Shown: positions 6,416 through 12,332 of the stretch, piece after piece
Numbering within the stretch: position 1 is the stretch's first letter
How the letters are laid out: every line of letters begins with the position of its first letter
IMG/VR virus record: IMGVR_UViG_3300032163_000117
Coordinates: 1 to 21,634 of that record
DNA: 21,634 nt
Origin: a virus
Reading direction: 5' to 3' (one strand)
Program-made: the position numbers and the translations under genes
Notes under the pieces: generated by a model
Told to the model about the DNA's origin: nothing
The model's database searches: none
What the model saw: only the letters and a program-made list of their open reading frames with translations

Positions 6416-8114
6416 AGTTCTCGACGTTCTTGACGAATACTCCACCCTTGTACAGATCAGAAAACCCTTTGAGGCCGTCTGGGACGATATTGACGCGAAT
6501 CTGCTTCCAAACGTAGCCCGCCTTGCTGAGTCCTCCTCACGTCAAACCGAGCAGGGCCAGAAACGAGATGAAAAAATCATCGACGGGACACCGCGTTCGG
6601 CGCTCAGTACGTTCCAGGCGGGCCTCATGGGGCGTCTGATGTCCAACACGAACGACTGGCTGGCTGTGGAGACGCCCGACGAAGATATGGCCGACGACCG
6701 AGACATCCGGATGTGGCTTTCCAAGGTCAACCAAGTCATATTCTCCCTGATCAACCGTTCCACCTTTTATCCCATGGTCTACCAACTTTTCGGCGTGGCT
6801 GGAGGGATGGGGTCGGGTGGCGTGTACCGATACTTCGATAAGCAAGAAGGCAAGGAAGTCTTCTCCTGCCGCAACCCGTGGGAGATGTTCTACTCCGACG
6901 GCCCGGACGGGGAACTGGACACCGTGTTCCGCCTCACCATCATGACCGCCAAGACAATGGTACAGGCGTTTGAGAATGACACGCTGGATGCCGAGGTGAT
7001 CCGGATGGCCGGTTCCAATACCGAGAAGCACAACGATGTCCGGCTCATCCATGCCGTGAAACCGAATCCTGACTACGATCCGCGCAAACGAGACACTAAG
7101 GCGAAGAAGTACGTTTCCTACTACGTGGATCTCGACCACGAAAATCTCGTGCGCAAGGGTGGTTACTCGGTGATGCCCTATTCGGCCTGGCGCATCGAGA
7201 AGGAAGTCAACGAGGACTACGGGCGCGGCCCTGGCTGGCGAGCTCTGGCCGACATCAAGGGTCTCTATGCCTACGCCAAGACCGACATCACCGGCGCGCA
7301 AATGCAAGTCAACCCTCCGTTGGATATACCACGCGAGCAAGAGGGCAAGGTCCAGTGGCGCCCAGGCGGACGGAACTACTTCGACGAGGTGGGGCGAACC
7401 GCGAAACCCGCCGAGACGAGAATCGACCTGAAGGCCGGTCTTGAACGCGAGCAGCACAAGCAGCAGATTATCGAGCGCCATTTTATGGTTCCTTTTTTCA
7501 CCGCCATGCAACAGATTGGGGGGATGGACAGGGAGCGCACCGCCTACGAGGTCCGCCAGATCGAACAGGAGATGGCTATTCTTCTTGGACCCTACGCGAT
7601 GGGCTTCCAAGTTCAGTTCATGGATTCCATCGTGGAGGGGATATTCAACGATGCCGCGGATAACGGGTTGATCCCTCCACCACCGCCGCAACTCGTCCAG
7701 AGCCTAAACGGACGTAAACTGGAGATTTCCTACTCCGGTCCCTTGGCGCAAGCGCAGAAGAACTTCTTCAACTCGGAGCCGTACAGGAAAACCATTCAAG
7801 ACATCCAGGCGATGATGGGCGTGGATCCCACGGGCCAGCATCTACCGTCTCAGATCATGGACATACCTGATTGGGACCGTTTCCTGAAAGAACTTGCTCA
7901 GGGAAATGGTCTGCCTATCGAATCGCTTCTGGAGGACAAGACTTTCAAGCAGATTCGCAAGCAGCGCGCCGATGCCATTCAGAAACAGCAGCAACTTGAT
8001 GCGATTCAGAAGATGGGCGGGATGCAAGGTCTCAACCAGCCGGCGCAACCGGGGAGTGTAGCTGATGCGATGGCTAAGCAAAATCAGGGCCAGCCTGTTG
8101 CGTCGGGACAGTAG
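6408..8114 (+). CDS. Portal protein (podovirus head-tail connector)
   Basis: This 568-residue protein looks like the podoviral head-to-tail connecting portal family (PF12236). Family-like segments include the N-terminal helical part with TPRSALSTFQAGLMGRLMS, then LFGVAGGMGSGGVYRY, the CRNPWEMFYSDGPDGELDTV strand region, and the late stem/clip part with ERTAYEVRQIEQEMAILLGP. The C-terminal 60 residues are Gln-rich (KQRADAIQKQQQLDAIQKM), a likely helical barrel or crown. Twelve copies would form the DNA channel to which terminase and tail dock. ATG 6408 overlaps the upstream stop, and the SD is weak (GAAGAG), so coupling is likely. Length is normal for the family. Confidence 0.9.
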   Translation: MSEVLDVLDEYSTLVQIRKPFEAVWDDIDANLLPNVARLAESSSRQTEQGQKRDEKIIDGTPRSALSTFQAGLMGRLMSNTNDWLAVETPDEDMADDRDIRMWLSKVNQVIFSLINRSTFYPMVYQLFGVAGGMGSGGVYRYFDKQEGKEVFSCRNPWEMFYSDGPDGELDTVFRLTIMTAKTMVQAFENDTLDAEVIRMAGSNTEKHNDVRLIHAVKPNPDYDPRKRDTKAKKYVSYYVDLDHENLVRKGGYSVMPYSAWRIEKEVNEDYGRGPGWRALADIKGLYAYAKTDITGAQMQVNPPLDIPREQEGKVQWRPGGRNYFDEVGRTAKPAETRIDLKAGLEREQHKQQIIERHFMVPFFTAMQQIGGMDRERTAYEVRQIEQEMAILLGPYAMGFQVQFMDSIVEGIFNDAADNGLIPPPPPQLVQSLNGRKLEISYSGPLAQAQKNFFNSEPYRKTIQDIQAMMGVDPTGQHLPSQIMDIPDWDRFLKELAQGNGLPIESLLEDKTFKQIRKQRADAIQKQQQLDAIQKMGGMQGLNQPAQPGSVADAMAKQNQGQPVASGQ

Positions 8115-10710: not shown

Positions 10711-10733
10711 GGGGGGAGTTCAGGACTCCCCCC
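10711..10733 (+). terminator. Strong hairpin after the capsid-cement genes, no T-run
   Basis: GGGGGGAGT (10711-10719) and ACTCCCCCC (10725-10733) form a perfect 9-bp, very GC-rich stem with a 5-base loop. It lies eight bases after the cement stop and just before the SD of the next gene (AAGGGGG, 10734-10740). It lacks the T-run of an intrinsic terminator, so it may stabilise the 3' end of the capsid mRNA, attenuate readthrough or modulate translation of the next gene. Confidence 0.5.
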
Positions 10734-11052: not shown

Positions 11053-11286
11053 ATGAAAAGCACGTTCAATTCCAGCAATCAGTTCTGGACGGAGATCGCG
11101 GCAAGCGCCGGGCTCATCGGGAGTCTGGCTGTCACGTCTTCGTGTCTCACCACGAGCGAAGTCAGTCTTGCCAAGTGGATCAACGATTTCGGTGTAGCCA
11201 ACAGCTACTGGAGGCCACACATGATCAACGAGTTCCTTGTCCTGCTGGACAAGGTCCTGCGGCGCTATCCGGCGACCACGGACTGA
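11053..11286 (+). CDS. Hypothetical protein (77 residues)
   Basis: This is a 77-residue protein of unknown family. It has a mildly hydrophobic stretch AASAGLIGSLAVTSSC (about 16-31) and a C-terminal helix with NEFLVLLDKVLRRYP. The start resembles a lipoprotein signal but the residues before the Cys (VTSS) do not fit a lipobox, and the N-terminus lacks the usual basic charge. ATG 11053 has an excellent AAGGAGGG (11036-11043). Its position among head and tail genes suggests a virion or assembly role. Confidence 0.65.
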   Translation: MKSTFNSSNQFWTEIAASAGLIGSLAVTSSCLTTSEVSLAKWINDFGVANSYWRPHMINEFLVLLDKVLRRYPATTD

Positions 11287-11322
11287 AAGGAGTGGGGCCG
11301 GCGTTTAGCCGGCCCTTTCATG
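11286..11322 (+). promoter_or_regulatory. Hairpin between SD and start codon (SD-bridging structure)
   Basis: AAAGGAG (11286-11292) is a strong SD but lies 27 bases before the ATG at 11320. Between them GGGCCGGC (11295-11302) and GCCGGCCC (11308-11315) form a perfect 8-bp GC stem with loop GTTTA. With the stem folded, SD and ATG are separated by only six unpaired bases (TG and TTTC), the normal distance. Bridged SDs of this kind are known in phage T4 (genes 38 and 25). The hairpin followed by TTTC could also act as a weak terminator for the upstream gene. Confidence 0.6.
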
Positions 11323-11511
11323 AAGTGGAGAATTGTCGAGTATCAACCGGAACGCTACCGGGCCGAACGGAAGATTGTTTTCTGGTGGAGACTGAAGTTG
11401 ATGTTCTCTGAAATCGACGATGCAGAGGATCATATCCGATACATCATCTGGAATGACAAGAGGAAAAAGAAGCTGAAGAGGTTCCGGGCCCGCGAGGTGT
11501 TACAACCATGA
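11320..11511 (+). CDS. Hypothetical protein behind the bridged SD (63 residues)
   Basis: This 63-residue, strongly basic and aromatic protein (MKWRIVEYQPERYRAERKIV, then FWWRLKLMFSEIDDAEDHIR and a KRKKKLKRFRAREV end) resembles short phage proteins with a W-x-V beta start and an aspartate/glutamate-containing helix, of unknown function. The only SD is the one brought near by the hairpin at 11295-11315. Its stop overlaps the adaptor ATG as ATGA (11508-11511). Good codon composition and the coupled junction support it as real. Confidence 0.65.
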   Translation: MKWRIVEYQPERYRAERKIVFWWRLKLMFSEIDDAEDHIRYIIWNDKRKKKLKRFRAREVLQP

Positions 11512-12332
11512 GTACGGCAAGCATCACGGCAAATGTCGATATAGCCAACCTTGCTCTTTCGAGGTTGGGAGAGCCCGCTATCTCTACGCTGACTGAAGTT
11601 TCCAGGGACGCGACTGCATGCAATCAATTGTTCGCGCAGAACCGCGACTACTGCCTCATGCTGGCGGACTGGGACTGTCTCTTGCAGCGTTCTACACTCA
11701 CGAGGGCGGGCAAGACTGCCATCTCCGGGATCACGGCGGCCAACCCCCCGCATGTCACGGCCACGGGACACCTCTTCATCGCTAACGAACTAGTGAGCGT
11801 GGAAAGCGTCACCGGCATGTCGCAGATCAACGACAACCTATACCGCGTGTTCGCCATCGGCACCAACTCTCTCACGCTCTACAACACGGACGGTACTTCA
11901 CTGGACGCATCGGGCTACACCGCATGGACCTCCGGGGGCTATGTCTATCGAAGCTCGGGCAACTGGGCGTTCGCTTACGACCTTCCTACCGACTGTATCC
12001 GCGTGGCGGCCATCATGAATGAGATCGGAAAACTTCAGCCCAAGTACTCGTGGACGAAGGAACGGAACTTCATCTACACGGACATCGAGAATGCCGGGGT
12101 GAAGTACGTGAAGCAGACGACCGACCCGACACTCTTTGAAGCGGATCTCGTAGAAGTCATGTCCGCTCGTCTGTCGTGGCTGGTGTCCATGAGGATCCAT
12201 TCTGACAAGGCGCTCAGGACCCAGGTCTACAACGAGATGAACCAAGCGATCCAGAGAGCCCGCATGACGAACTCTCAAGGCGAGGGAGACGACGGGGCGC
12301 CAGAGGATTTGTGGGTGGACGCACAGAGATGA
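11508..12332 (+). CDS. Head-to-tail adaptor protein with inserted FCCH-like domain
   Basis: This is a 274-residue protein. The N-terminal helices (DIANLALSRLGEP, 11-23; DATACNQLFAQNRDYCL, 34-50; then ADWDCL) and the C-terminal helices (DPTLFEADLVEVMSARLSWL and following) are those of podoviral adaptor proteins (T7 gp11 / P22 gp4 type), which ring the portal exit and seat the nozzle. Between them, about residues 72-147, sits a beta-rich insertion (NPPHVTATGHLF..., then TSGGYVY) like the FCCH domain first named in ubiquitin-activating enzymes. This insert is common in phage structural proteins and implies no enzyme. GAGGTG (11494-11499) precedes ATG 11508. Its stop overlaps the nozzle ATG. Confidence 0.82.
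   Translation: MSTASITANVDIANLALSRLGEPAISTLTEVSRDATACNQLFAQNRDYCLMLADWDCLLQRSTLTRAGKTAISGITAANPPHVTATGHLFIANELVSVESVTGMSQINDNLYRVFAIGTNSLTLYNTDGTSLDASGYTAWTSGGYVYRSSGNWAFAYDLPTDCIRVAAIMNEIGKLQPKYSWTKERNFIYTDIENAGVKYVKQTTDPTLFEADLVEVMSARLSWLVSMRIHSDKALRTQVYNEMNQAIQRARMTNSQGEGDDGAPEDLWVDAQR

Follow-up and report, generated by a model that had tools for sequence, protein, structure and literature searches.

Hairpin H2, which lies between the small genes orf77 and orf63 in the 21,634-base window (the whole stretch of DNA analysed, an IMG/VR virus record), is best explained, on comparison with related viruses, as this phage's version of a hairpin that recurs, close to a stop codon, where the head genes give way to the tail genes. 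There is perhaps an even chance that this boundary hairpin, once folded, is also the spacer within a split ribosome-binding site for orf63, bringing a strong, distant Shine-Dalgarno sequence (SD) within working range of the start codon.

The window holds the virion module of an epsilon15/BPP-1-like podovirus, with genes for portal, capsid, a Bbp16-like cement protein (Pfam PF21190), tail-tubular A and tail-tubular B, together with small genes. The features discussed here are collected in Table 1. The two small genes that flank H2 share one reading frame (11053-11511), with a single UGA and the hairpin between them.

Table 1. Features of the window around hairpin H2 (positions are those of the window)
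Feature	Position	Strand	Remarks
Hairpin H1	10711..10733	+	3' of orf137 (Bbp16-like cement protein); normal SD downstream of H1
orf77	11053..11286	+	Small gene upstream of the hairpin; stop TGA 11284-11286 touches the SD
Shine-Dalgarno (SD) AAAGGAG	11286..11292	+	Sole SD candidate for ATG 11320
Hairpin H2	11294..11316	+	8 perfect GC pairs, loop GTTTA, plus G.U pair 11294/11316
orf63	11320..11511	+	63 residues; putative start ATG 11320; stop overlaps the tail-tubular-A start (ATGA)
Internal start, rival	11387..11403	+	GGAG 11387-11390 with TTG 11398 / ATG 11401
Tail-tubular-A gene	11508..12332	+	phrog_394

The leader of orf63

The arrangement described in the initial annotation (AAAGGAG, a perfect 8-bp GC stem, ATG 11320, and a spacing that drops from 27 to 6 nt) proved exact on re-reading. 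The stem pairs GGGCCGGC (11295-11302) with GCCGGCCC (11308-11315) around the loop at 11303-11307, and its formation leaves 2 + 4 of the 27 linear nucleotides between SD and ATG. The wobble pair G11294.U11316, with a pairing probability of about 0.7, extends the stem to 9 bp and shortens the spacing to 4 nt. Structure prediction likewise forms the stem, with a folding energy of -19.0 kcal/mol for the isolated hairpin at 37 C, but longer folds also sequester some SD bases or the first base of the AUG, which counts against bridging; when 76 nt are folded, UGAA 11284-11287 and UUCA 11317-11320 pair with each other. When 131 nt are folded, the unpaired probability is 0.58-0.95 for the bases of the SD and 0.48-0.99 for those of the AUG. 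For the 40-nt leader the folding energy is -22.2 kcal/mol (z = -4.3), a value matched by none of 200 shuffles. The stem greatly exceeds chance expectation: perfect all-GC stems of at least 8 bp occur 0.15 times per shuffled window, and the only intergenic perfect stems of at least 7 bp in the window are H2 and H1. A scan against Rfam matched no family.

The hybrid of AAAGGAG with the anti-SD is worth about -8.2 to -8.3 kcal/mol, while the local SD energy 3' of H2 is 0.0. No ATG, GTG or TTG lies in frame between the orf77 stop and 11320, and orf63 is the only gene in the window whose start lacks both a local SD and an adjoining or overlapping stop codon.

The coding signal of orf63 is 0.196 bits per codon relative to out-of-frame sequence, a level reached by 10 of 180 decoy stretches and lying within the range of the window's real genes (0.10-0.44; 0.14-0.44 for the well-supported ones, 0.10 for the small orf92). 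No homologue was found by searches of PHROGs, Pfam, INPHARED and IMG/VR or by phmmer on all loci, a point against the proposed bridge, and BLASTP detected no relationship to epsilon15 gp10. An AlphaFold model made without an alignment consists of one long helix (pTM 0.35) and was set aside.

A recurrent hairpin at the head/tail gene boundary

Of 231 distinct viruses, 161 carry at least one GC hairpin at a junction between genes 3' of the capsid gene, 177 distinct hairpins in all, and such hairpins recur between the capsid and tail-tubular-A genes. Median distances are 13 nt from the preceding stop codon and 18 nt to the following start, and an SD lies 3' of the hairpin in 157 of the 177 junctions; genes at the junctions were called by a simple script, and single junctions may be wrong. 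At least 5 T within 8 nt after the stem are found in 36 of the 177, and the tails are U-rich in some relatives, among them BPP-1 (L112) and L117. In the epsilon15 record (NC_004775) the hairpin that separates gp9 from gp10 is annotated as a rho-independent terminator, and gp10 overlaps the tail-tubular-A gene gp11. The boundary hairpins are probably 3'-end elements, either terminator-like or mRNA-stabilising. H1 also has counterparts, of differing sequence, in three relatives (L003 at 3120, L006 at 6428, L008 at 6429).

A variable slot downstream of orf77

Relatives differ from the window at the place where it has H2 and orf63. In L003 (capsid 73% and tail-tubular A 49% identical to those of the window) and L094 (tail-tubular A 54% identical), tail-tubular A lies directly 3' of the orf77 homologue, and its SD touches the stop codon (TAAGGGAGGCTGACATG; TAAGGGGGCGCGCGGTG). 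In L008 the tail-tubular-A start directly follows the stop of the orf77 homologue. The slot is thus empty in these three, with neither orf63 nor an H2-like hairpin. The L006 slot (6973-7994) contains ORFs of 269 and 70 codons. The contents differ among the four relatives, so the slot is a variable site of insertion. The AAAGGAG of the window occupies the position that the tail-tubular-A SD holds in L003 and L094, and the distribution among relatives suggests that the arrangement in the window is the derived state.

A second case in another epsilon15-like virus

We scanned 12,049 long-ORF starts for the order SD, hairpin, start and obtained seven matches, including the window and L023, another epsilon15-like virus. 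In L023 the arrangement spans 6713-6749 and reads aaaTAAGGAC[AGGGGGGCATTGCCCCCCT]aataccctATG. The gene that follows is the conserved tail-tubular-A gene, which here encodes 197 residues; a TAA in its frame immediately 3' of the hairpin obliges it to start at ATG 6747. The closest relatives of L023 either place a normal SD 3' of the hairpin or show nothing of this kind, and this lack of conservation around L023 counts against the bridge. Among the other matches, the one in L016 lies inside the portal gene, and those in L166, L006 and L056 were set aside as their gene starts are only putative.

The window and L023 are the only two clear cases in which a credible gene follows the hairpin with no SD between them; in each, an SD immediately precedes the hairpin. 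A strong upstream SD is present at 3 of the 6 junctions that lack a downstream SD and at 9 of the 171 others (Fisher p = 0.004), or at 2 of 5 when the window is removed (p = 0.03), figures to be read with a small sample, a threshold chosen after the data were seen, and the doubtful nature of the 42-aa ORF that follows one of the three (L258) in mind. Four entries in the junction table (L292, L246, L258 and L226) were rejected as weak or doubtful cases.

Alternative explanations

Several other accounts of how orf63 is, or is not, translated have to be weighed. Initiation within the gene, at TTG 11398 or ATG 11401, would give a product of 36-37 residues and make H2 and AAAGGAG irrelevant; the internal GGAG has an SD energy of -6.4 at a spacing of 7-10 nt. 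We consider this unlikely, given that codons 1-27 are also coding-like, at 0.131 bits per codon vs about -0.4 in the other frames, although their total signal is modest (3.5 bits), which weighs against the bridge as well. Re-initiation by ribosomes leaving orf77, whose stop lies 33 nt upstream, would make a folded spacer unnecessary. The SD overlaps that stop, and the window's other weak-SD starts also stand at a stop codon; all of them, however, abut or overlap it, whereas 33 nt is a long gap for coupling; moreover, structure just after a stop codon correlates with less coupling (PMC12548453), so the strong stem here disfavours it. Re-initiation as the whole explanation therefore looks distinctly improbable, while coupling to orf77 may help initiation at orf63, with the SD overlapping the orf77 stop. 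Readthrough of UGA 11284, or SECIS-like recoding, would fuse orf77 to orf63 through the frame that is open from 11287 to 11508, and the stem does begin 8 nt after the UGA. We regard it as very remote: the orf77 homologues in L003, L006, L008 and L094 end in the same residues (...TTD) at TAA, TAG, TAA and TAA, respectively, with no extension, and the linker codons lack a coding signal (-0.144). A recoded UGA with a conserved extension, the mark of stop readthrough or a bacterial SECIS, is thus missing, and this candidate was rejected. Similarly far-fetched is the temperature- or transcription-dependent switch that the initial annotation had read into the stem. Its position is the one point that speaks for such a switch; the stem, at -19 kcal/mol at 37 C, is predicted to stay paired with a probability above 0.9 even at 85 C. 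RNA thermometers have to melt at growth temperatures, and H2 is too stable for that role.

The main rival is that H2 is a 3'-end element of the head transcript and nothing more (a weak terminator or an RNase barrier), with AAAGGAG a fossil of the SD that once served tail-tubular A, orf63 translated weakly or not at all, and tail-tubular A served by its own SD, GAGGTG. The energy of that SD (-7.2), the U-rich tails seen at some other boundaries, the orphan status of orf63, and the position of H2, in synteny with the annotated terminator of epsilon15, are all consistent with this reading. Both H1 and H2 have poor U-tails, however; the tail of H2, TTTCATGA, has 4 T in 8, under the rule of 5, and H2, GC-rich hairpin though it is, is not called a terminator. 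The gene-like codon usage of orf63 and its ending in an ATGA overlap also argue against it, and we rate it as possible yet rather doubtful. Partial termination, which had been suggested along with the switch, fits the position of the hairpin and not the U-tract rule; it is a possible, if tenuous, additional role.

A proposed constitutive split ribosome-binding site

With no local SD, no other standard in-frame start upstream, and the parallel in L023, bridging across the folded hairpin is the simplest account of initiation at ATG 11320, and this part of the original suggestion is plausible and gains strength from the L023 case; nothing supports a regulated state. We propose that a boundary hairpin and a small ORF entered the slot downstream of orf77 in the lineage of the window, such that the hairpin would now separate a stop-touching SD from the next start. 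Because the hairpin should always be folded, it would be looped out, and the SD could act on ATG 11320 across 4-6 effective nucleotides. The site would then be constitutive, not a switch, and translation of orf63 would feed tail-tubular A through the ATGA overlap. Initiation at 11320 and the coupling to tail-tubular A are both inferred. That a terminator-like boundary hairpin has, in epsilon15/BPP-1-like podoviruses, at least twice independently become the spacer of a split site, thereby combining the 3' end of the head transcript with translation of the next gene (tail-tubular A in L023), is a more tentative suggestion.

Split ribosome-binding sites are on record for two T4 genes in a review (PMC3014915). 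If our reading is true, a second, unrelated phage group would join them with two independent cases, and the arrangement would seem to arise readily wherever a stop-touching SD adjoins a boundary hairpin. It would offer a small gene a route into an operon without an SD of its own. It would also be a caution for start-codon callers, as the absence of a local SD would not exclude a start.

Comparison with known systems

Like H2, the terminator of epsilon15 is a GC hairpin close to a stop codon; it occupies the corresponding position in the virion module and precedes a small gene overlapping tail-tubular A. In epsilon15, however, the tail is U-rich (GCTTTTCT) and a GGAG lies 3' of the hairpin, whereas in the window the tail is poor and the SD lies 5' of the hairpin. 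In T7, the terminator-like hairpin Tphi, at genes 10/11, also lies between the capsid and tail-tubular-A genes; its sequence and tail differ from those of H2.

The folded spacers of T4 genes 38 and 25, cited as precedent in the initial annotation, are confirmed in the literature: folding reduces the SD-AUG spacing from 22 to 5 nt in gene 38 and from 27 to 11 nt in gene 25, and initiation is lost when the structure is weakened (PMC3014915). As in T4, where the SD stands 22-27 nt from the AUG, orf63 has an intercistronic hairpin between a strong SD and its putative start, the SD is too distant to act unaided at 27 nt, and there is no other. The stable hairpin brings the folded spacing to 6 nt with the 8-bp stem, inside the 5-11 nt of the T4 sites, or to 4 nt when the G.U pair makes it 9 bp. 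Unlike the T4 cases, the candidate described here belongs to an epsilon15/BPP-1-type podovirus, draws its hairpin from the boundary class, precedes an orphan gene, and is proposed from sequence and in-silico folding.
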